DNA from: a bacterium
Lineage (GTDB): Bacteria > ARS69
Direction of reading: 5' to 3'
Assembly (NCBI GenBank): GCA_025774805.1
Contig: JALGZR010000092.1
Span: 1 to 15,437, forward strand
Length of the DNA stretch: 15,437 nt
Made by a program: the position numbers and the translations under genes. Below the pieces are notes generated by a model. It worked only from the letters and a program-made list of their open reading frames with translations. It had not been told where the DNA came from and ran no database searches. Shown here piece by piece: positions 1,230-12,769 of this stretch (positions are counted from its first letter, which is position 1; each line of letters opens with the position of its first letter).

Positions 1230-1757
1230 CCGGAGCCCTTCCTCCCGCAGAACACCGCCGGCTCCGGTGAGAGCGAGGGGCCGCCCAAACGCGGCGCTCT
1301 CGGAGAGGGGGCAGGCATGCGGGGACCTCTTCGACTGACGTTGCCGCCGCCGAGCCGCGCCGTCAAGGAAACCGTGCCGGGGGTCCGACATGGGGGATGA
1401 CGGCCGCTCCGGTCCCAGATGCGAACTCTCTTATCACCTGGCGGGCGGGGCCGGGTCTGCGCATTCTCCCCAAATCGGGTGAGGCGGGCGCCGAAGAATC
1501 CAAGTTTTCGTCAAGGTCGACTAGAGTTCACCCCACCGCCCGGTCTACCATGAAGTGCGCCGAATTCGGAGACCCGGTGATCTTCCCGGGGTGAGCTCGC
1601 TTTCGGCCCGGACTCGCACACTGGAACCGCATCGTGACCGAGTTCTCGGAATTTCCTTGTCAGGCCCGGGTCTACGACGCCGCCTCCGGAGGGCATCCTG
1701 ACCCGTCCAGCAACCGATCTTCGCCCGCCTCGATTCCTTTCACCTCGATGAGATCGA
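1230..1757. other. Intergenic region between divergent radical SAM and sugar transferase genes
   Basis: This 528-base gap separates two divergently transcribed genes, so both promoters should lie here. I see no convincing -35/-10 pair. A TTGACG hexamer reads on the minus strand at 1514-1509 but has no acceptable -10 partner. A perfect 10-bp palindrome, CCGAATTCGG, sits at 1560-1569 and could be an operator or chance. Short open frames at 1397-1594 (plus) and 1511-1696 (minus) have no recognisable motifs and are not called. Confidence 0.4.
1238..1246 (-). promoter_or_regulatory. Ribosome binding site deciding the radical SAM start
   Basis: GGGAGGAAG on the minus strand lies 8 nt before the GTG at 1229. 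It supports this start over the upstream in-frame ATG at 1391. Confidence 0.7.
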
Positions 1758-2516
1758 ATGTCAAATACGCCCCTTGATCAGTGCCTGGTCCGAGATGATC
1801 CACCGAAGCGCTCCGGCCGTCCCAGGTCCCCCGGACGATTGCCAGCCCGTGTTCCTCGAGAGATTCCCGCGATCCCTTCCGGGCTGGAGAGCATCCCTCG
1901 ATCCAAGCGGATCGTGGACGTCGCAGCCGCGATCGTGATGTTTCCCATCTTCCTGATCGCGATTCCCTTCATGTGGGTCCGCGGAAGGATGAAGGGGCTC
2001 TCGGGTCTCTTCTTCCGACAGGAGCGGATCGGTTGGAGGGGTCAGCGGTTCCGCGTTCTCAAATTCCGAACCATGAATGAGGGGACAAACGGGCACCCGC
2101 CGAACGGCGTGCTGACATTCGCCCGGCGGATCGGTGTCGACGAGCTTCCCCAGGTTATCCACCTGCTTCAGGGGCGCATGTCGTGCGTGGGACCCCGACC
2201 GCTCGTTCCCGGGGACCTGCAGGACTGCCTTCCGGAAGAGGTTCGCCTCCGCCAATCGGTTCTTCCCGGGATGGCGGGGCTCTCCCAGATCGCCGGAGCG
2301 TTCCGATCGCGCCGCGGTCGGTTGAGCCGCGACCTGATGGACCGCGACCTCTGGTACGTCCGTAATCGTTCCCTGGGACTGGATCTCCGCATTCTCGGGA
2401 GCACGTTCGTCTATGTGATCACGTTCGGAAGGTCGCGCGTCGCGTGGCTTCCCCAACCGCCCCGTCGCGAGCGGGATCCCGTCGTATCCACGGGGGCCGA
2501 CGCGGGTACGGGCTAG
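1758..2516 (+). CDS. Bacterial sugar transferase (undecaprenyl-phosphate sugar phosphotransferase, PglC-like core)
   Basis: The 252-residue product has the monotopic phosphoglycosyl transferase layout: a basic Pro-rich N-terminus (1-48), one hydrophobic re-entrant helix (about 53-74, starting SKRIVDV), the KFRTM motif at 102-106, DELPQ at 128-132, GPRPL at 145-149 and a PGMAGLSQIAG segment at 170-180. Asp128-Glu129 correspond to the catalytic Asp-Glu dyad known from PglC. The enzyme would move a sugar-1-phosphate from a UDP-sugar to undecaprenyl phosphate at the inner membrane, starting a glycan for polysaccharide or protein glycosylation. It lacks the multi-TM N-terminal domain of WbaP-type enzymes, so it is the small form. 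The sugar specificity is unknown. The ATG at 1758 has only a weak GAG upstream, so the exact start is less certain. It converges on the GT-C gene and shares four bases (CTAG) at the stops. Confidence 0.85.
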   Translation: MSNTPLDQCLVRDDPPKRSGRPRSPGRLPARVPREIPAIPSGLESIPRSKRIVDVAAAIVMFPIFLIAIPFMWVRGRMKGLSGLFFRQERIGWRGQRFRVLKFRTMNEGTNGHPPNGVLTFARRIGVDELPQVIHLLQGRMSCVGPRPLVPGDLQDCLPEEVRLRQSVLPGMAGLSQIAGAFRSRRGRLSRDLMDRDLWYVRNRSLGLDLRILGSTFVYVITFGRSRVAWLPQPPRRERDPVVSTGADAGTG

Positions 2517-4705: not shown

Positions 4706-4776
4706 CTAGCCTGCGTGTATCACGGGACTCGACACGAGGCAGCGGCCCGCCGCACCCCGTGAGGAATGCAGGCTAG
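4706..4776 (+). repeat. Structured palindromic repeat, copy A
   Basis: This 71-nt element runs from CTAG to CTAG. The outer arms CTAGCCTGC (4706-4714) and GCAGGCTAG (4768-4776) pair perfectly. A 5-nt poorly paired segment follows, then TCACGGG (4720-4726) pairs with CCCGTGA (4756-4762). Inside are two small hairpins: CTCG-ACA-CGAG (4728-4738) and GCGGC-CC-GCCGC (4742-4753). Together they make a three-way junction. Copy B (8803-8873) has the same length and layout and shares GGCAGCGGC and GCCGC in the same orientation. The element lies between the divergent GT-C and mutM genes, ending 12 bases before the mutM start. No target duplication is evident. A REP/BIME- or MITE-like element is the closest known category; I cannot assign a named family. 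Confidence 0.8.
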
Positions 4777-4779
4777 AAT
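4774..4779 (+). promoter_or_regulatory. Possible -10 element of mutM formed at the edge of repeat A
   Basis: TAGAAT (one change from TATAAT) ends 9 nt before the mutM ATG. Its first three bases are the end of repeat A. Transcription would begin at or just before the start codon, fitting a leaderless mRNA and the lack of a Shine-Dalgarno near the ATG. No good -35 hexamer is seen. This is inference only. Confidence 0.3.
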
Positions 4780-4788
4780 GGGTCCGCC

Positions 4789-5613
4789 ATGCCCGAGCTG
4801 CCCGAAGTCGAGACCATCGCCCGGGGACTGCGCCCCGTCGTCGAGGGAGCGGCCATCGCCGGCGTCGATATCCGCCGACCGGACTATGTCCGGTGTCTTC
4901 CGCCTTCGACGGCCGCGGACCTGGCCGGCCGGAGAATCTCGCGGGTCGGTCGTCACGGAAAGAGACTCATCCTCGAGCTGTCTCCCCCCGGAGAGATCGT
5001 CGTTCACTTCGGCATGAGCGGAAGGCTCCTGGTCGCGGGAATCCGGAACCGGATCGCCCCCCACACCCATCTCCGCCTGAGGCTTCGGGGACGCCGCCGT
5101 GAGCTTCGCGTGTGCGACCCGCGACGGTTCGGGGCGGTGTGGATTCGCTCCCGACCGAACGGCAACGCCGCGGCCGGGTCGGAACCCCCCCCGCTCGGCC
5201 CCGATGCGCTCGCGGTCCGCCTTCCGGCGTTCCGGAACCTCCTGGCGCGCCCCCGTCAGATCAAGGCCCTTCTTCTCGATCAACAAGCCATTGCCGGACT
5301 CGGCAATATCTACTGCGACGAGGCCCTCTTCGCTGCGTGCATCCATCCCGCGACGCGGGCGGCGAGACTCGAGGAGGACGAGACCCGCCGTCTTCTCCTC
5401 GTTCTGCGGAGAATCCTCCGGACCGCGATTCGGCACGGCGGATCGACTCTGAGGGATTACCGGGACTTGCGCGGCCGGCCCGGCGCGTTTCGGCGACACC
5501 ACCGGGTGTACGGTCGGACCGGGCAGCCCTGTCCGCAGTGTGAAACTGCGATCGTCCGCCTGATCGTGGCCGGGCGCTCCTCGCACGTCTGCCCGCGCTG
5601 TCAGACAGAGTGA
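4789..5613 (+). CDS. mutM: Formamidopyrimidine-DNA glycosylase / AP lyase
   Basis: The 274-residue length is typical of Fpg. It begins MPELPEVET, so after Met removal the catalytic Pro and the following Glu are in place. K58 (GRHGKRL), M76 (FGMSG) and R112/R113-F114 (CDPRRFG) match the conserved lysine and the Met/Arg/Phe wedge that fills the space of the flipped base. The helix-two-turn-helix carries GLGNIYCDEAL at 170-180. The C-terminal zinc finger is CX2CX16CX2C (C248, C251, C268, C271) with the conserved GRSSHVCPRC end. The enzyme removes 8-oxoguanine and FapyG from DNA and cuts the strand by beta/delta elimination. It stands alone on the plus strand. The start is fixed by the invariant N-terminus although no ribosome binding site is visible, and repeat A lies immediately upstream. 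Confidence 0.97.
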   Translation: MPELPEVETIARGLRPVVEGAAIAGVDIRRPDYVRCLPPSTAADLAGRRISRVGRHGKRLILELSPPGEIVVHFGMSGRLLVAGIRNRIAPHTHLRLRLRGRRRELRVCDPRRFGAVWIRSRPNGNAAAGSEPPPLGPDALAVRLPAFRNLLARPRQIKALLLDQQAIAGLGNIYCDEALFAACIHPATRAARLEEDETRRLLLVLRRILRTAIRHGGSTLRDYRDLRGRPGAFRRHHRVYGRTGQPCPQCETAIVRLIVAGRSSHVCPRCQTE

Positions 5614-5702
5614 TGCACGGCCGTCACGACACCCCCACGGGCTCAGGCCGGACCCCACGTCGCGAGGAGGTCCGTGAGCCGGAAGGGATTCCTTCGAGAG
5701 GT

Positions 5703-5768
5703 CGGCGGGGAGCCGCCGGCATGGAGCCGAGGAAACGGGACGGGGCTCCCGCGGGCCGCTTCGCCCGC
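5703..5768. terminator. Two GC hairpins between convergent mutM and lipoprotein genes
   Basis: CGGCGG-GGAG-CCGCCG (5703-5718) and GCGGGC-CGCTTC-GCCCGC (5751-5768) each have a perfect 6-bp stem. They lie in the 183-base gap between two convergent genes, where a two-way terminator is expected. No T-run follows either one, so the role is uncertain and could simply reflect high GC. Confidence 0.3.
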
Positions 5769-5796
5769 CGGGGCCCCGCCGGTGGCTCGCTTCGGA

Positions 5797-6129
5797 TCAG
5801 TCGAACGCCTTCTTCGCCGCGTCGAACGCTTCCTTGAGCGCAGGGGTCTCCGAGACGGTCTTCATCATCTCGTCGAACTTCTCCTTCGTGATCCCCTTCT
5901 CTTCGAGGATCTCCTGAATGCGGCCGGGCTCTTTCTCGATGGCGGCCGCGATCTCGGCGAGCTCGCGAACCTTCTCCGTCGAGAGCTCCGCCAGCTCGGA
6001 GACGGCGCCTTCAACCTTCTCCGCGGCCGATTGCGTGGCATCTTCGGGTGTCGAGTCGCCCGCACAGGCGGTCAGCCCCAGAAGGGCGCCAAAACAGAGA
6101 ACCGCGATCACTTTCCGGTACACGCTCAT
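5797..6129 (-). CDS. Small helical lipoprotein of unknown function
   Basis: The 110-residue product begins MSVYRKVIAV with a short basic n-region, a hydrophobic stretch (7-19) and a lipobox LTAC with the lipidated Cys at 22. The mature part is almost wholly alpha-helical and charged: residues 33-75 (Glu/Ala-rich, EKVRELAEIAAAIEKEP) look coiled-coil-like, and 76-110 form a further helical unit (ILEEKGITKEKFDEM). I do not recognise a family. The open frame extends 20 codons further to 6189, but GGAGG at 6136-6140 sits 6 nt before the ATG at 6129, and only this start gives a proper signal peptide. It follows the DUF4197 gene by 56 bases on the same strand, so the two are probably co-transcribed and both products likely sit in the periplasm or on a membrane. 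Confidence 0.8.
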   Translation of the reverse strand: MSVYRKVIAVLCFGALLGLTACAGDSTPEDATQSAAEKVEGAVSELAELSTEKVRELAEIAAAIEKEPGRIQEILEEKGITKEKFDEMMKTVSETPALKEAFDAAKKAFD

Positions 6130-6135
6130 GGGTAT

Positions 6136-6140
6136 CCTCC
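6136..6140 (-). promoter_or_regulatory. Ribosome binding site deciding the small lipoprotein start
   Basis: GGAGG on the minus strand lies 6 nt before the ATG at 6129. It favours the start that gives a lipoprotein signal peptide over the longer open frame. Confidence 0.75.
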
Positions 6141-6185
6141 CTTCGGCTCTGGACGGTCCTCGGATCTCTCGGGTTCCGGGTTCCT

Positions 6186-6971
6186 TCACTCCGGTGAAGA
6201 TCGCGCCGTGCTCGAGAACACGGTCTGCAGAAGCTTGGTCGTCCGCGCTACGGGATCGTCTCGAATCCTCTTCTCCTCCTGGCCCAAGACGGTGAACAGC
6301 CCGTCCAGGGCTCTCTGCGTCACATAGTCGTCGGGGTCGAACTCCGGCTCCGTGGTGAGTGGGAGTGCAAGGTATCCCTGCAGCACCCGGTCATAGAGGC
6401 GATAGACGCCCACGTCGGAGAGCTTGTCGATCACGATGGGCCGAAACCGCGTTCTCAGCTCGTCCTCCGTCCGGTTCCGGAAGTACTCCGTGGCGGCGGT
6501 GTCATGGCCGCGCAGGATACCGAACGCGTCCGTGAGCGTCATCGAGGTAATGGCGCCGACGAAAACGTCCAGGGCCTCTCCCGAGGCCTTCTCCGCGGCC
6601 CGGTTCATGGCCAGCTCGAACTCGTCGACGGTGCCTCCGAGGCCCACGCTCCGGAGGGTGCGGGAGACGGGTTGCAGCTGGTCGGGAAGTGGAATGCGAA
6701 TGAGAGGATTGCCCGCGTATCCATCGAGTCGTGAGGTGGAGGCCACCGTCCGGTCGGTGCCCACACGAAGCGCCTCCTTCAGCCCGGCGACCACGGTCCT
6801 CTCGTCGACGACCACCCCCCCCTCGGAATCCGATCCGAGGATCCGTTCGAGAGAGAAGGGGTCGACACTCGCGCACCCCGCCCCCAGGAGAGCGGCCGCT
6901 CCGAGAAGGACGGGGGGGGCGGCCCCGACAGAGGAGATCCGCAGACGATTGCGGGTCCGTCGAGCCGGCAT
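6186..6971 (-). CDS. DUF4197 family exported protein
   Basis: The 261-residue product fits DUF4197 along its whole length: an early GLKEAL motif, GYAGNPLIRIPLP (84-96), the helical stretch FELAMNRAAEKA, AITSMTLTDAFGILRG followed by DTAATEYF, a YVTQRALDGLF block, and the C-terminal EEKRIRDDPVARTTKLLQTVF. The biochemical role of this family is unknown. The N-terminus is basic (MPARRTRNRL) with a hydrophobic stretch ending LLGAGC, so C33 could be lipidated, although the Leu is at -4 and the lipobox is imperfect; signal peptidase I cleavage is the alternative. The ATG at 6971 was chosen over a GTG at 7004 because AGGAG lies 7 nt before it at 6979-6983. It is probably the first gene of a two-gene operon with the small lipoprotein. 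Confidence 0.9.
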   Translation of the reverse strand: MPARRTRNRLRISSVGAAPPVLLGAAALLGAGCASVDPFSLERILGSDSEGGVVVDERTVVAGLKEALRVGTDRTVASTSRLDGYAGNPLIRIPLPDQLQPVSRTLRSVGLGGTVDEFELAMNRAAEKASGEALDVFVGAITSMTLTDAFGILRGHDTAATEYFRNRTEDELRTRFRPIVIDKLSDVGVYRLYDRVLQGYLALPLTTEPEFDPDDYVTQRALDGLFTVLGQEEKRIRDDPVARTTKLLQTVFSSTARSSPE

Positions 6972-7278
6972 CCTCTTTCTCCTCTCGGGTCGTCGGACGG
7001 CCACCCGGGCCGTGCGCGGGACCGCCCGGCCACCCGATCACTCGGCGGGTGGTTCTCCTCGCGGCGAATCCTGAACCGGAGGGAGCAATCGGACAAGGGC
7101 CGATTTCGCGAGGTCGGGGGAGAGCCGACTCCCGTCAGGATCGGGGGATTCGGGGCGAAACCGAGGCCTTGCCGGTGCCGATGTGTGACAAGGAGCGCTC
7201 CGAGGAGGGCCTATGGGCCCATGACGGAATCCACGCAGTCCCTGCGTCCGGTCCCCGGTTCGACGATTTCCGCAAAAC
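6972..7278. other. Intergenic region between divergent DUF4197 and beta-barrel genes
   Basis: This stretch lies upstream of both divergent genes. The only structure I see is the small stem GGGCC-TATG-GGCCC near 7207-7220. A short open frame at 7185-7373 runs through into the leader of the next gene and has no protein features, so it is not called. No clear promoter for the DUF4197 gene was recognised. Confidence 0.35.
6979..6983 (-). promoter_or_regulatory. Ribosome binding site deciding the DUF4197 start
   Basis: AGGAG on the minus strand lies 7 nt before the ATG at 6971. It selects that start over the GTG 11 codons upstream. Confidence 0.7.
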
Positions 7279-7319
7279 TTGACAAGGATTGCCAAGTTGC
7301 CGCTCGAATGATGGTCGAA
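7279..7319 (+). promoter_or_regulatory. Candidate promoter/operator of the beta-barrel gene
   Basis: A perfect -35-like TTGACA lies at 7279-7284, but no good -10 is found 16-18 nt downstream (GCTCGA at 17). The hexamer is part of a dyad, ACTTG with CAAGT 12 nt later. A second dyad, ATGAT with ATCAT, follows at about 7308-7325. Either could bind a regulator. The evidence is motif-level only. Confidence 0.3.
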
Positions 7320-7331
7320 CGATCATGGCCA

Positions 7332-7405
7332 CCCCGGTTCCGGTCTCAAGCCGGGGCGCTTGCTCTCCGTTAAGGGGGCGAATCCCCGCGCTGATCACTG
7401 CGGGG
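7332..7405 (+). promoter_or_regulatory. Structured 5' leader of the beta-barrel gene (two hairpins)
   Basis: Two stems lie before the ribosome binding site: CCCCGG at 7332-7337 with CCGGGG at 7351-7356, and CCCCGC at 7384-7389 with GCGGGG at 7400-7405. The strands are interchangeable in part (CCCCGG/CCGGGG versus CCCCGC/GCGGGG), so alternative pairing is possible. I do not recognise a known riboswitch. AAGGAG at 7418-7423, 8 nt from the ATG, remains unpaired in this model. Confidence 0.35.
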
Positions 7406-7431
7406 ACCTCCATCCACAAGGAGAAGTCCGA

Positions 7432-8070
7432 ATGAATCGCGCCATGTGCCTGCTCGTCGCCCTGGGCATGTTCCTCGTCCTGCAGGCGCCGGCGGCGGCG
7501 ATCGAAGAGATCCACGCCGGGGTCAAGGGCGGTGTCAACATCGCGAACCAGAGCGTCGATCCGAGCGACTCGGAGTACTCAGACTACCGGAGTGGGATGG
7601 CCATCGGTGGCTACATCGGCATCCCGCTGGCCCCGGGGTGGTCGATCCAGCCCGAAGCGCTCTTCTCCATGAAGGGCGACAAGGAAGAGGCCTCCGGCGT
7701 CTCTGGAAGCGCCAAGCTCGACTACATCGAGGTGCCGGTGCTCGCGAAGGCGAGCTTCATGCCGCACGCCTCCGCCCACCCGTCGCTGTTCGCCGGTCCT
7801 TCGGTGGCGTATAACCTCTCCTCGAAGACTGCAATCGAAGGGATGGGCGCACCGTTGGACGGGGAGTACGACATGAAGGACGAGACCAGCGCGTTCGACT
7901 TCGGGCTCGTCTTCGGCGGAGGCCTCGAGATCCCGATGTCGAGCGGCGTCCGGACCGTCGGCATCGACGTCCGGTACACGCTCGGCCTCACGAACACGAT
8001 CGACCAGGACACCGGCGTCGAGGCCAAGAACCACGTCCTGTCGATCATGGGATCGATCGGGTTCCTGTAG
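7432..8070 (+). CDS. Outer-membrane beta-barrel protein (porin family, OMP_b-brl_2-like)
   Basis: The 212-residue product opens with a signal peptide (MNRAMCLLVALGMFLVL, cleavage after Ala-Ala-Ala near residue 23). It continues with HAGVKGGVNIAN, the common first strand of small porin-family barrels. Alternating amphipathic strands follow: GGYIGIPLAPGWSIQPEAL, KLDYIEVPVLAKASF, SLFAGPSVAYNLSS, FDFGLVFGGGLEIPM and VGIDVRYTLGLTNTI. The C-terminus ends in Gly-Phe-Leu, close to the usual terminal aromatic signal. About eight strands are likely. The function is unknown; such proteins occur as small pores or structural barrels. The frame is open upstream to 7360, but AAGGAG 8 nt before the ATG at 7432 and the signal peptide fix the start. 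A strong terminator follows at once, so it is probably monocistronic. Confidence 0.88.
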   Translation: MNRAMCLLVALGMFLVLQAPAAAIEEIHAGVKGGVNIANQSVDPSDSEYSDYRSGMAIGGYIGIPLAPGWSIQPEALFSMKGDKEEASGVSGSAKLDYIEVPVLAKASFMPHASAHPSLFAGPSVAYNLSSKTAIEGMGAPLDGEYDMKDETSAFDFGLVFGGGLEIPMSSGVRTVGIDVRYTLGLTNTIDQDTGVEAKNHVLSIMGSIGFL

Positions 8071-8097
8071 GAGCGACCACGGGCCCACGAGACCGGG

Positions 8098-8126
8098 AAG
8101 GGCAGGGGATTTCCCCTGCCCTTTTC
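8098..8126 (+). terminator. Rho-independent terminator of the beta-barrel gene
   Basis: AAGGGCAGGGGA at 8098-8109 pairs with TCCCCTGCCCTT at 8112-8123 (12-bp perfect stem, tight loop). The stem runs into TTTTCCTT on the plus strand, 27 bases after the stop codon. This is the clearest terminator in the window. Confidence 0.9.
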
Positions 8127-8328
8127 CTTGGCGCCCTCTCTTCCACTCCCGAGTCACCGGACGCGGTCCCTTCGCGGCGGACGTGACTCTCTCGCGACAT
8201 GGCGGGTCTGAGGAAACGGCACCGGGAGACCGTCGCGCTCGTGCCTTGAAGCCGCTCCCGGAGACCACCTCTACGCGAATGCCGGGACGATCGTGTTTCT
8301 CGGTCGCGGGGGGCGCGGCCGATCGGAC
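8127..8328. other. Intergenic stretch between convergent genes
   Basis: This region of about 200 bases lies between the terminator and the 3' end of the DUF1232 gene. I see no coding region, no repeat and no clear minus-strand terminator. Confidence 0.4.
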
Positions 8329-8772
8329 TCAGAACCGATCGGCGATCCCCCGCAGCCTTTTCCAGAGTCCGCTTCCGATCATCGAGTTCGCGACGTCCAG
8401 GACTCGCTGGATCACCTCGAGCACGTCACCGCTGCCCGCCCAGTGACGCCGCACGACCTCCGGATCCGTTCGGTTGACGAGACCGCTCAGGACGTAGGCC
8501 GCCAGGGCGGTGTCGTCGAGATATCCGACCGGACCGAAGAGAGCTTCGGGAAAGAGATCGAGGGGGGTCACGAAGTAGATGATGGCGGCGAGGAGCTTGA
8601 CCTTCTCCTGCTTCGGCACGTCCGGATCGCCGGAGAGCTTCAGGAGCAGGTAGAAGAAGTCGGGAGCGGCCAGAAGGATGTCGAGGTGGCGGTGCAGCTG
8701 TCCCGCACCACCCGCCCACTCCTCGACACGCCCGCGAAGACGCCGGTAGAAATCGAGATGCTCTTCGTCCAT
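8329..8772 (-). CDS. DUF1232 (YkvA-like) small membrane protein
   Basis: The 147-residue product carries the DUF1232 core at about 57-96: KVKLLAAIIYFVTPLDLFPE followed by GPVGYLDDTALAAYVL, with the hallmark Pro-Leu-Asp-Leu and Gly-Tyr-Leu-Asp-Asp. The N-terminal 50 residues are amphipathic helix and the C-terminal part is helical. The role of the family is unknown. The ATG at 8772 has no visible Shine-Dalgarno. It lies 97 bases downstream of the giant surface gene on the same strand, with repeat B filling most of the gap, so it may be the last gene of that operon or be separated from it by the repeat. Confidence 0.85.
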   Translation of the reverse strand: MDEEHLDFYRRLRGRVEEWAGGAGQLHRHLDILLAAPDFFYLLLKLSGDPDVPKQEKVKLLAAIIYFVTPLDLFPEALFGPVGYLDDTALAAYVLSGLVNRTDPEVVRRHWAGSGDVLEVIQRVLDVANSMIGSGLWKRLRGIADRF

Positions 8773-8802
8773 TCGTGCGGCCCGGTCGGTCGCGCCGTCA
8801 GG

Positions 8803-8873
8803 CTAGCCTGCATATCTCACCAGCCTCTGCTGCGGCAGCGGCAAAGCCGCGCCTGGTGAGAAATGCAGGCTAG
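8803..8873 (+). repeat. Structured palindromic repeat, copy B (most intact)
   Basis: This 71-nt element runs from CTAG to CTAG. With one extra base on each side, its arms 8802-8823 and 8853-8874 are complementary at 21 of 22 positions. Inside are two hairpins: CTGC-TGCG-GCAG (8827-8838) and GCGGC-AAA-GCCGC (8838-8850, sharing one base). Copy A has the same length and architecture. The inner end of the long stem differs in a compensatory way: TCACCAG/CTGGTGA here against TCACGGG/CCCGTGA in copy A. The right edge lies inside the giant gene's terminus: the CTA at 8870-8872 is that gene's TAG stop codon. The left edge lies 30 bases before the DUF1232 start. Confidence 0.88.
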
Positions 8874-11800
8874 CGCAAGACGACGAGCTTTCTCTTCCTC
8901 GTCTCGTCTCCGGCGCGCAAGACGCAGAAGTACACTCCGCTGGCCACGACGTGCCGGGAGCCGTTCCTTCGGTCCCAGATCTCCACGTGGTAGCCCGGGG
9001 TCCTCGGCTCGCCGTCGACGAGCGTGCTCACCTCTTGTCCGAGAACGTTGTAGATCCTCAGCGTCACCGGAGTCTCCCGCGGGACCCCGTAGCGAATCGT
9101 CGTGAGCCCGCGGAACGGGTTCGGGAAGTTCTGCGCCAGCACGAAACTCGGGGGAATCAGGTCGAGGACGCGGATCTGGGCGTCGACGAAGGGCCGCGGT
9201 CCGACGAGAAGTCGTAGGCCGGCCACGTTCTCTTTCCCCCGGGACACGAAGGCATGGGTGTTGCGCCCCCGCAGGTCCTGTGCGATCTGGAGCTGCTCGT
9301 CGGCCAGCCAGACCTCGTGCTCCTCCGGGACTTCGGCAATGCCTTCGAATCGGAGCTCGACCCGGTCGGGGATGTTCGTCCGCACCGTGAATCGCCAGAC
9401 CTGTCCCTCTCCGACCTCCGGCCGCGCGTCGGTTCGCAGTCCGGGCAGCCCCGATCCGGCCGGCGGGTCGAACGCGACCGACACGTAGCCCCCGATCACG
9501 GGCGGTTCGATGCGATCCCGGGCGTCGAATCCGTCCGATGCCGTCGGGGCGATCGCGGCGGTGTTTTCCGCGTCGTGGGCGTCCTGGACCCGCGCTCGGA
9601 TGCGAACCGCCCACCCGGCCGGATCCGCCGCGGGGCCGGGGCTCGGGGACGGCGCAAGGTCCGGGTCGATCCGGAGGTGGTCGGCCCCGTTCGCCCAGAT
9701 CGCGTATCCCTCATAGGGCACGAGCATGCCGGGAGAGATCCAGCCGTTGCCGCCCTCGTACGTCAGGATGTCGGGCCCGCCACCCGACTCCAGCGCGACG
9801 TTCGAGAGCGGGATCGAGAATGTGAAGGGGTTTCCTACGAAGTTCCACTGCGGGTGGAGATCGATCGCGAACGAGGTGTCCGCTTCCACCGTCGTTCCGG
9901 GGCCGGTGTCGATGACCTTCCCCGGCTCCTTCACCGCGAGCCAGAACGACCGGCCGGCCGCCATCCCGACCGTCCCGGGGAACTCCGTATACGCCTGGTC
10001 CGACCGGAGTTCGAAGAACCTCCAGCTCTTCGAGTCGTATTCACCCAGATCGTCTTCCAGGACCGCGGCCGGGCTCTCGTCGTCGAGGTCCAGGGGAACC
10101 GAGAACAACCGGTAGGCCGTCTGCTCCGATCCTCCCGGTTGCGCGCTGTCCCTGGTCTGGTTGGGGACCGCCACCCGGATCGCGAACCGCTCCGACCGGC
10201 CCTCGAACCCTCGCGAGTCCTCCGCCGTGAGATAGCCGACCAGACCGAGACTCGTGACGTCGGCCGCGGGGACGACCCCCTGGTAGACGTCGCCGGACAG
10301 GTTTACCATTCCGACACTCCGGACGCTCCCTGGCCCGCCCGGCGCGTAGTGAATCGCCGGCGAGACGACACCGTCCGGATCGGTGATCGCCGCCGAGACC
10401 GTCACGTCGGCCCCGAGCGTGGCCACCGGAGCGTTGATCGAAGCGAAGAGCGGATGCTCGTTCCCCACGATGGTGACGCTCGCGGAGTTGTTCCCGTAGA
10501 CCTCGTCGGCCCTCTCGCTCGAAGAGATCGTCGCCACATTCGTCAACGGGGTCGCCTGCTCGACCGTCGCCACGATCTCCAGGGTCTCGATGGCTCCCGT
10601 CGGCAGCGGATCGCCCAGAGTCCAGACTCCCGCGGCGTAGCTTCCCCGACTCGGGGTGGCCGAAACGAACGCAAGTCCCGGAGGCAACGAATCGGCCACC
10701 TCGACGTCGGGGGCCTCGTCCGGTCCGTGGTTCGTCGCGGTGATCGTGAACGTGACGTCCGTGCCCCGGTTCGGGTTCGTCTGATCGGTGGTGATCAGAA
10801 CCTGGAGATCCGCCGATCCGGAGAAGACCGATGCGCTCGCCTCGTCGTTGAACGGGTTCGGATCGTACTGATCCCGACCCGTGATCCTGGCCACGTTCGC
10901 CATCTGACCCACGCTGTCCACCCCGGCAACGATCGTCAGCGTTTCGGTAACGGCCACGGCCAGTTCGAACGGGAGTCTCCACGTCCCGTCCACGTAGAAT
11001 CCTTCCGTCGCGGTGATGCTCCCGAAGCCGAGACCGTCGGGCACCGAGTCTCTCACCGTGATGCTCGTCGCCGGGTCGGGCCCCCGGTTCGTGATCGTGA
11101 CCGTGAAGGTCACCGAATCTCCCAGCGCCGCCACGGCCTGCGGGTCACATCCCGGGGCGCCCGCGGAGACACACTTCGTGACCTCCAGATCCGCAAGTCT
11201 CCCGGACAGGGTCGCGCCGGCCCGGTCGTTCCCGGGGAGTTCGTCCGCCGCTCCGGTGGCCGTGATCGTCGCCGTGTTCGTGATGCTCCCCGCTCGATCC
11301 ACCCGGGCGGTGATGGCCAACACCGCGCTGGAGTCGACCGCCAGCGACTCGACGCTCCAGACTCCGTCCGCATACGTTCCCGTGTCCGGGTTCGGGGGTT
11401 GAAAGGTCAGCCCGTCGGGCGCGGCGTCCGTCACCTCGATGTCCGTGGCGTCGTCCGGACCGTGGTTCGTGAGCGTCACCGTGAACATCACCGTGCCGCC
11501 GACGTTGGGGGAGACGGCATCCACCGACTTGGTCAACGCGAGATCCGCCATCACGGTGGAGAGTGTCACGCCGGCCGCGTTGTTGTTCGGGTTCAGATCG
11601 GGCGGATCGGCCCTGAGGATCTCCGCCTCGTTGCGGATCGGGAGGGCGCCGTCGACCCGTCCCCGGATCCAGAGGTTCGCGGAGCTTCCGAAGGGAAGCG
11701 ATCCGAGGGTCCAGTGGCCGTCCGAGTACGATCCCGCGGTCGTCGAATCCGTGACGAACGCGAGCCCGGGGGGTTGCACGTTGCTCACCTCGATCCCCAT

Positions 11801-12769
11801 CGCGTCGCTCGGTCCGAAATTCGTGATCTGCACCGAGAAGAAGACGGTGTCCCCGGGGGCCGGTTCCACGTCGTCCGCGGACATACTGAGCACGAGGTCT
11901 GCGGCCTGCCCGGTCAACGGAGCGCTCGCCGCGCCGTTTCCCGGCACGGGGTCCCCCTGGTCCGCCCGGGTGATCGCGGCCGTGTTCACGATTGCGTCCG
12001 GGGACAGCACGCGGGCCACCAGTGAGAGCTCGGCGGATTCCCCGCTCGGAAGGGACCCGAGCGTCCAGTCCCCCCTCGCGAACGTGCCGGTCGTCGTCGT
12101 GGTGGCGGTCGTGTCGACGGCGAGCCCGAGGACCGGCGGATCGGAGACGACGATTCCCGAGGCGTCGTCCGGGCCGTAGTTCGTGACCGTGACGGTGAAC
12201 ATCACGTCGTCCCCGACGCTCGGCGTCGAGTCCGACACGCTCTTCGTCAGACCGAGATCGGCCTCGACGGCGGACACCGTGGCGCTCCCCTGATCGTTCG
12301 TGTCGTTCGGGTCCTCTTGGTCGGACGCCGTGACCCTCGCCGTGTTCTCGTGGGTCCCGAGTTGATCGAGCGTGGCCCGGATGACGAGCGTCGCCGTCGA
12401 GTCGCTCGCGAGAGTCCCCACCATCCACGTGCTGTCCGCATAGGTCGTCGAGCCGCTCGTCGTGATCTCGGTGAACGTCAGCCCCGGAGGGGCCCCGTCC
12501 GTGATCTCGACTCCGGTGGCCTCCGCCGGCCCGAGGTTCGTCAGCGTCACGGCAAACGTCACGGCGTCCCCCAGATTCGCCCGGGGGGTGTTCACGATCT
12601 TCGTGAGGGCCAGATCGGCCGTGGACGGAACGCCGGCCGTGCCGGGGCGAGGCTTCGCGTCGGATGCCGAGGCGATCGCTGCGCCGAGAATCACCAGACC
12701 CGAGCTCACGAGTCCGGATCGCGCGAGTCGCTGCCGCAGAAGAGACTGGTGAGATATTCCGGCTAACAT
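8870..12769 (-). CDS. Large exported surface protein: six DUF11 repeats, Ig-like domains and C-terminal FlgD/sorting-type tail
   Basis: The 1299-residue product has these parts in order: a signal peptide (1 to about 35, hydrophobic GLVSSGLVILGAAIASA); six DUF11-type beta-sandwich repeats starting at 51, 170, 290, 408, 526 and 653, each with a version of the ADLALTK opening, FTVTVTNYGP, a PPGL turn and a final PGNN/DPNP asparagine motif; an Ig-like stretch at about 770-870; a Trp/Gly-rich beta region at about 885-1030; a further beta domain at about 1050-1200; and a terminal FlgD-Ig/type-A sorting-like domain at 1212-1299 (QNFPNPF, YNVLGQEV, GVYFCVLRAG, KLVVLR). It is probably exported and held at, or released from, the surface. 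Only repeat 5 has a Cys pair (C533, C541). The ATG at 12769 overlaps repeat C, which encodes residues 2-14 including the basic n-region; the stop lies in repeat B. It follows the TPR gene by 59 bases. Confidence 0.9.
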   Translation of the reverse strand: MLAGISHQSLLRQRLARSGLVSSGLVILGAAIASASDAKPRPGTAGVPSTADLALTKIVNTPRANLGDAVTFAVTLTNLGPAEATGVEITDGAPPGLTFTEITTSGSTTYADSTWMVGTLASDSTATLVIRATLDQLGTHENTARVTASDQEDPNDTNDQGSATVSAVEADLGLTKSVSDSTPSVGDDVMFTVTVTNYGPDDASGIVVSDPPVLGLAVDTTATTTTTGTFARGDWTLGSLPSGESAELSLVARVLSPDAIVNTAAITRADQGDPVPGNGAASAPLTGQAADLVLSMSADDVEPAPGDTVFFSVQITNFGPSDAMGIEVSNVQPPGLAFVTDSTTAGSYSDGHWTLGSLPFGSSANLWIRGRVDGALPIRNEAEILRADPPDLNPNNNAAGVTLSTVMADLALTKSVDAVSPNVGGTVMFTVTLTNHGPDDATDIEVTDAAPDGLTFQPPNPDTGTYADGVWSVESLAVDSSAVLAITARVDRAGSITNTATITATGAADELPGNDRAGATLSGRLADLEVTKCVSAGAPGCDPQAVAALGDSVTFTVTITNRGPDPATSITVRDSVPDGLGFGSITATEGFYVDGTWRLPFELAVAVTETLTIVAGVDSVGQMANVARITGRDQYDPNPFNDEASASVFSGSADLQVLITTDQTNPNRGTDVTFTITATNHGPDEAPDVEVADSLPPGLAFVSATPSRGSYAAGVWTLGDPLPTGAIETLEIVATVEQATPLTNVATISSSERADEVYGNNSASVTIVGNEHPLFASINAPVATLGADVTVSAAITDPDGVVSPAIHYAPGGPGSVRSVGMVNLSGDVYQGVVPAADVTSLGLVGYLTAEDSRGFEGRSERFAIRVAVPNQTRDSAQPGGSEQTAYRLFSVPLDLDDESPAAVLEDDLGEYDSKSWRFFELRSDQAYTEFPGTVGMAAGRSFWLAVKEPGKVIDTGPGTTVEADTSFAIDLHPQWNFVGNPFTFSIPLSNVALESGGGPDILTYEGGNGWISPGMLVPYEGYAIWANGADHLRIDPDLAPSPSPGPAADPAGWAVRIRARVQDAHDAENTAAIAPTASDGFDARDRIEPPVIGGYVSVAFDPPAGSGLPGLRTDARPEVGEGQVWRFTVRTNIPDRVELRFEGIAEVPEEHEVWLADEQLQIAQDLRGRNTHAFVSRGKENVAGLRLLVGPRPFVDAQIRVLDLIPPSFVLAQNFPNPFRGLTTIRYGVPRETPVTLRIYNVLGQEVSTLVDGEPRTPGYHVEIWDRRNGSRHVVASGVYFCVLRAGDETRKRKLVVLR
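10463..12619 (-). repeat. Six tandem DUF11-type coding repeats
   Basis: The units, in protein order, lie at 12619-12263, 12262-11903, 11902-11549, 11548-11195, 11194-10814 and 10813-10463, or 117-127 residues each. Units 1, 2 and 4 keep the ALTK/GLTK opening; unit 3 has VLSMS, unit 5 EVTKC and unit 6 QVLIT. Unit 5 is longer because of a Cys-bounded insertion. Identity between units is moderate at protein level, so the array is old rather than a recent expansion. Confidence 0.85.
12729..12767 (-). repeat. Palindromic repeat, half copy C, within the start of the giant gene
   Basis: Read on the minus strand from 12767 down to 12729, this matches the first 39 bases of copy B (8802-8840) at 34 of 39 positions, including an uninterrupted ATATCTCACCAG and CTGCGGCAGCG. 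The second half of the element (second hairpin and right arm) is missing. The first base of the match is the G of the giant gene's ATG start codon, and the repeat is translated as Leu-Ala-Gly-Ile-Ser-His-Gln-Ser-Leu-Leu-Arg-Gln-Arg. Confidence 0.82.

Follow-up and report, generated by a model that had tools for sequence, protein, structure and literature searches.

The 15,437-nt stretch of DNA analysed here, referred to as the window, is an entire contig (JALGZR010000092.1; C40) of a 5.1-Mb metagenome-assembled genome (MAG) of 284 contigs (G000). It carries two short repeats, copies A and B, in which the folded shape is conserved although the sequence has changed, and it raises the question of what such elements are, what moves them and why their fold persists. 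An original prediction, made from the letters of the window, had likened them to repetitive extragenic palindromic (REP) elements moved by Y1 transposases of the REP-associated tyrosine transposase (RAYT) type. The analysis leads to a different answer: A, B and a third, partial copy C belong to a family of IS1380-type miniature inverted-repeat transposable elements (MITEs). The explanation as a whole, that of a non-autonomous hairpin MITE with IS1380-type ends and a folded core constrained at the level of the lineage, is one that we hold with considerable confidence.

The repeat family and its full-length unit

Measured from CTAG to CTAG, both A and B span exactly 71 nt, and each has two hairpins inside one long outer stem, as first described. 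On the plus strand their folding z-scores were −6.0 and −7.1, respectively, and none of the dinucleotide shuffles equalled either value. The compensatory differences between them also stand: the stem end reads TCACGGG/CCCGTGA in A and TCACCAG/CTGGTGA in B, the first hairpin CTCG/CGAG and CTGC/GCAG, and pairing is kept at both places. Chance does not account for the repeats, as the 19-nt arm pattern has three matches in the window against 0.00 expected. The additional copy, C, is a half element.

The suggestion of a dispersed mobile family was borne out in the rest of the genome. The half-site TGCATNTCTCACCNG occurs 373 times, compared with a single occurrence of the reversed pattern, and a longer half-site pattern occurs 294 times against none for its control; copy B as a BLAST query gave 103 matches. 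When the pairing of terminal repeats was surveyed in 1.16 Mb of the genome, the facing pairs grouped around lengths of 55, 71, 78, 83 and 182 nt. The elements of the family (55–186 nt) have terminal repeats of about 20 nt and no gene inside. Their full-length form is about 182 nt, and the shorter forms are contained in it: a deletion between two CCAGGC repeats of the 182-nt consensus gives the 71-nt form, one between two GAGGCTG repeats gives that of 55 nt and one across GCG that of 78 nt, with junction repeats of 6, 7 and 3 bp, respectively. The 83-nt class could not be fitted to one clean deletion in the 182-nt consensus. Hence, the predicted length of 71 nt was correct for A and B, but the unit is the element of about 182 nt, and 71 nt is an internal-deletion class that is not preferred as such. 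The full-length element forms one long imperfect hairpin (z-score −11.4 on the motif strand and −7.9 on the other), and A and B owe their three-way junction to the deletion of its middle.

No gathering-level match to Rfam was found over the elements (best weak match, E 0.92), and the plasmid and phage collections, queried with one relative element each, gave no match. A literature search retrieved no paper in which these end or core sequences are described as a repeat.

Ends and target site of the IS1380 family

The ends of the family, CTAGCCTGCATNTCTCACC, are also the ends of IS1380-family insertion sequences (ISs). Three complete IS1380 copies bounded by them were found, of 1732 bp (L211), 1731 bp (L200) and 1614 bp (L201). 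The L211 transposase reached 385 bits with the NCBIfam IS1380 equivalog NF033539 (cut-off 180), and the IS1380 transposase in the genomes of relatives reached 489 bits with PF13701. This IS1380-family transposase domain was present in 12 of 25 end-carrying genomes and in 3 of 14 controls.

Evidence on the target site comes from the Bryobacterales genome JAPPLB, where the L211 IS1380 and a 185-nt MITE (L134:7575) are each inserted in another MITE. The corresponding empty sites were identified by BLAST in other, uninterrupted copies, which have a single CTAG (GCTTGCGC-CTAG-TCCTGACGG and GTCAGGA-CTAG-GCGCAAG). Therefore, both the IS1380 and the MITE in JAPPLB duplicate a 4-bp CTAG. Abutting copies in the window's genome have one CTAG in common, which matches the prediction of the duplication model. 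On the grounds of the IS1380 ends and the CTAG duplication, we conclude that the family of A, B and C consists of IS1380-type MITEs, and the REP/RAYT identity was dropped. In the proposed mechanism, a DDE transposase of the IS1380 family would, in trans, recognise the terminal repeat CTAG-CCTGCATNTCTCACC and insert the element at a palindromic CTAG, whose 4 bp would be duplicated. The 182-nt element folds end to end, and 71-nt copies would arise from it by loss between the CCAGGC repeats.

A structured core common to several phyla and two terminal repeats

When 84,980 species genomes were scanned for CTAGCCTGCATNTCTCACC, at least 107 stretches with this sequence were found, and the carriers listed include Deltaproteobacteria, Bryobacterales and other Acidobacteriota, Gammaproteobacteria, Verrucomicrobia, Nitrospira, Eisenbacteria and others. 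Facing pairs in other genomes are mostly 182–186 nt apart; the inner sequence varies and one plan is kept. Among the five genomes of the small phylum to which the window belongs, there is one other carrier, G004, with a short element of about 52 nt, and half-site counts in the remaining close relatives of this phylum were at background.

Covariation, which had been proposed as a check on the fold, was assessed on 18 full-length elements from several phyla. The alignment has 40 pairs with 92.8% of the cells paired, and 24 of these pairs have changed on both sides. The covariation score was 0.388, against 0.18 for shuffled alignments and at most 0.10 when the partners were slid, with the structure taken from the same alignment and kinship ignored. 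For these two reasons, an independent test was made with a covariance model (R1) that was restricted to the inner region, built without the terminal repeats and trained without the window's genome or Bryobacterales. R1 recovered the 182-nt elements of the window's genome, typically with E-values of 1e-5 to 1e-2, and matched the Bryobacterales elements down to 1e-11.

R1 also revealed a second family in the window's genome, 184 nt in length, with different ends (CTAGCCCGGACTATTCATGAAG) and the same structured core (examples in Table 1). Its half-sites number 62 in this genome, and the same or similar ends were found 40 times in an Eisenbacteria genome and four times in an Acidobacteriota genome. 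Against the core model, the Acidobacteriota copies scored 63–91 bits and the Eisenbacteria copies gave a weak partial match. As a model of the inner region alone finds elements with other ends, the core is conserved independently of the terminal repeats. Two internal-loop motifs of the core, CGTCGCGAG/GCAGYAG and AGGCG-hairpin-CGTCG, are retained across phyla and with both terminal-repeat types, while the surrounding stems change and keep their pairing. Ends resembling those of the second family were seen adjoining IS1380-type genes on L202 (approximately 1402–1424, minus strand) and L210 (approximately 1904–1926, minus strand), namely CTAGCCCGAATGTTTCATAA and TAGCCCGGATATTTCATCA. Sequence resemblance suggests an IS1380 subgroup as the partner of the second family.

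Some elements depart from this plan. Five gammaproteobacterial loci (L097, L153, L168, L172 and L195) have elements of 248–291 nt with the same ends and a longer, different inner plan (..GTAGCTATGG..); the core model gave no match to them, and they are possibly another module under the same ends. Bryobacterales MITEs in JAPPLB (e.g., L104, L188 and L189) contain nested AT-richer repeats, CACGAATCACGAGACACGAAACACG, and form mosaics of 190–370 nt. An AT-richer element of 150–170 nt in genome G060 (L243:1930-2097 and L242:255-422), with ends TAGCCCGGAAAATTCATGAA and a subterminal repeat TATGCACAATCTCGC, is apparently without the core.

Strand bias and the level of selection

Wobble pairs were counted in a palindrome alignment that gives no credit for them. 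On the motif-defined strand, G·U was found 74 times and A·C 27 times over 16 lineages, and G·U exceeded A·C in 14 of the 15 untied lineages (p ~0.001), indicating that one strand folds. The mutations of individual copies relative to the consensus in the window's genome have no such bias (50 G-U vs. 42 A-C). Thus, the copies decay neutrally once they are inserted, and the fold is kept in the propagating lineage. Selection on individual copies was ruled out by the same lack of wobble bias in derived mutations, and the compensation between A and B belongs to the lineage, since individual copies show no pair-preserving bias. Of the selection on a folded single strand proposed in the original prediction, the strong cross-phylum covariation and the significant G-U strand preference are in support, but single copies are not. 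In the proposed mechanism, a single strand would fold and the constraint would act on the propagating lineage and not on each inserted copy. From these sequence patterns we infer that the folded strand, either RNA or single-stranded DNA, aids the persistence or transposition of the element. A more far-reaching proposal, to which we give somewhat less than even chances, is that the core is a strand-specific functional nucleic acid, most likely RNA. Such a module, about 140 nt long and marked by two conserved internal-loop motifs, would be carried under IS1380-type ends, would have been exchanged between at least two terminal-repeat types and spread over several phyla, and would actively help transposition or persistence instead of being filler.

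The most serious alternative accepts the MITE but regards the compensation as mutational, produced by template switching from arm to arm with no selection on the fold. A long imperfect palindrome is the classic substrate of quasipalindrome correction, the whole element is a near-perfect hairpin and both-side changes are frequent. Arm correction should, however, erase the mismatched internal loops, which persist across phyla while the adjoining pairs change, and an excess of G-U over A-C on one strand is not expected from it. In addition, C>T and G>A are balanced among the copies of the window's genome, and inner both-side changes are rare there (10 of 165 changed cells). We consider this alternative improbable as the full account, although it deserves more weight than the other rivals, and template switching between the arms may contribute to the matched pairs.

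The proposed transposase in the window's genome

Several results weigh against the preferred explanation of IS1380-type MITEs with a selected core. The assembly of the window's genome has no intact IS1380, only a C-terminal relic on contig C17 that lacks these ends, and the CTAG duplication was seen in a Bryobacterales genome other than the window's. For the second terminal repeat, the IS1380 ends found are merely similar and none is identical. The IS1380 copies share with the MITEs the terminal repeat alone, without the core. Lastly, G-T is tolerated in DNA too, so the strand bias cannot separate RNA from single-stranded DNA.

Two further possibilities were tried and rejected. Derivation of the core from the IS was ruled out for the IS copies examined, in which the core is absent. 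In the surveyed 1.16 Mb of the window's genome, long terminal-repeat pairs were inspected by eye for an autonomous copy, and none had an obvious transposase in its longest frame. MAGs often lose multi-copy ISs, which is offered as an argument and not as a result. As the assembly has the relic only, we infer, and do not observe, that the copies in the window's genome owe their movement to an IS1380 transposase. The relic would also fit another transposase as the mover in this genome, with the IS1380 link valid elsewhere only. Against this, the ends match those of complete IS1380 copies in other genomes, and the window's genome is the sole one of the five in its phylum with an IS1380-type match. 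A different mover is therefore unlikely.

Placement relative to genes

Genes were called with a simple hexamer gene caller. The overlap with genes was below 10% for 54 of 74 elements, compared with 14% of random placements. Among the CTAGs at element ends, 48 of 118 (41%) coincided with a TAG stop codon, against 56 of 221 free CTAGs. Copy B is the example in the window, as its terminal CTAG contains the stop (8870–8872, minus strand) of a 1299-aa DUF11/Por_Secre_tail protein (8870–12769, minus strand). Because CTAG holds TAG on both strands, insertion at a gene end would re-create the TAG stop, and copies would collect between genes and at stop codons.

A very stable fold, an intergenic position, the 41% of end CTAGs at stop codons and a strand-specific wobble bias would also suit a host-useful RNA or regulatory element, such as a terminator, an mRNA 3′ end or an RNase III site, selected at each location. 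The orientation relative to flanking genes is, however, random (20 vs. 18), many copies are truncated and single copies mutate as neutral decay predicts, which makes such a role highly unlikely.

The features are collected in Table 1. Copy A ends 12 bp upstream of the start codon of mutM/fpg (open reading frame 4789–5613, plus strand), and copy B is 97% identical to one other 71-nt copy elsewhere in the genome. In the large, 1299-aa surface protein, six DUF11 repeats are accompanied by a Por_Secre_tail domain (type IX secretion) at the C terminus. Copy C lies at the 5′ end of its reading frame and codes for the first residues after the start Met (LAGISHQSLLRQR); this start (MLAGISHQSLLRQRL...) directly precedes an apparent signal peptide. 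The beginning of a secreted protein may thus derive from the remnant of a transposon.

Table 1. Elements, terminal repeats and target sites in the window and in its genome (G000).
Feature	Position	Strand
Copy A, internally deleted 71-nt MITE, divergent member	4706..4776	- (motif-oriented strand)
Copy A, left terminal inverted repeat, CTAG at its start	4706..4724	+
Copy A, right terminal inverted repeat, CTAG at its end	4758..4776	-
Copy B, internally deleted 71-nt MITE, near family consensus	8803..8873	-
Copy B, left terminal inverted repeat CTAGCCTGCATATCTCACC	8803..8821	+
Copy B, right terminal inverted repeat GGTGAGAAATGCAGGCTAG	8855..8873	-
CTAG closing copy B on the right	8870..8873	.
Copy C, decayed half element, one terminal repeat and ~20 nt	12727..12766	-
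Second family, example in G000	L059:7188-7371	
Second family, example in G000	L037:8709-8892	
Second family, example in G000	L085:15383-15566	
Terminal repeats with a putative IS1380 partner: CTAGCCTGCATNTCTCACC and CTAGCCCGGACTATTCATGAA		

Comparison with known systems

To our knowledge, no 4-bp target duplication is made by the IS200/IS605 mechanism. REP elements are GTAG- and CGTC-tagged palindromes of 20–40 nt, the GTAG type being tied to Y1 transposases (PMC3733652); they resemble the present family as intergenic palindromes found across phyla, with the fold conserved over the sequence, and they lack long terminal repeats such as the ones of about 20 nt here. The reading of the original prediction, or more broadly that of REP or bacterial interspersed mosaic element palindromes moved by a Y1 (RAYT) transposase or an IS200/IS605 relative and cut as a single-stranded hairpin, can be practically dismissed: despite hundreds of palindromic, intergenic copies and the likeness of the CGTC and GTAG/GCAG core motifs to known REP tags (PMC3733652), the window's genome has no Y1_Tnp (PF01797) match in a search positive in 5 of 14 control genomes, the elements are 55–186 nt long, and their long terminal inverted repeats, like the CTAG duplication seen at empty sites, are shared with the IS1380 family of DDE transposases.

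The closest relatives are the IS1380 ISs themselves (NCBIfam NF033539, Pfam PF13701; e.g., IS1247, ISPme1 and ISPsp9), which have the terminal repeats CTAGCC[T/C]G[C/G]AT-TCTCAC[C/G] in common with the MITEs. IS1380 copies of 1.6–1.7 kb have CTAG at both ends and, in one genome, the same CTAG target as the MITEs. The MITEs differ from them in being gene-free, in having no more than the ends in common with them and in possessing a structured core. For IS1247, a 5-bp duplication has been reported (PMC3281130), in contrast to the 4 bp at the sites here. The Paracoccus TMos are modules mobilised by IS1380 (PMC3281130) and are likewise transposase-less DNA moved by IS1380-family transposition. They consist, however, of an IS1380 copy with adjacent genomic DNA of varied length, whereas each MITE stands alone as a short element that possesses both ends.

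Among bacterial hairpin MITEs, QMITE2 of Coxiella (about 190 bp, with a full-length hairpin), Chunjie, Nezha and Correia/NEMIS (PMC10969869) are comparable: they are short and gene-free, with terminal inverted and direct repeats, a stable full-length fold, many intergenic copies and shorter deletion forms. Each comes from one species or group, unlike the present family, whose core covaries across several phyla and is common to two terminal repeats; they are set apart here by description, not by sequence. The literature search found no report tying IS1380 to MITEs of this hairpin kind.

Bacterial MITEs are usually regarded as decayed, species-limited IS leftovers. In the present case, a single architecture, in which the stems covary and the internal loops are fixed, recurs in Deltaproteobacteria, Acidobacteriota, Gammaproteobacteria, Nitrospira, Eisenbacteria and the small phylum of the window. 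Its recurrence under two terminal repeats suggests that some portion of the element matters for its spread beyond the binding of a transposase. In addition, a sizeable load of unclassified repeats in uncultured genomes is tied to a named transposase family and to a CTAG target that restores stop codons, and the family helps to account for contig breaks in such MAGs.

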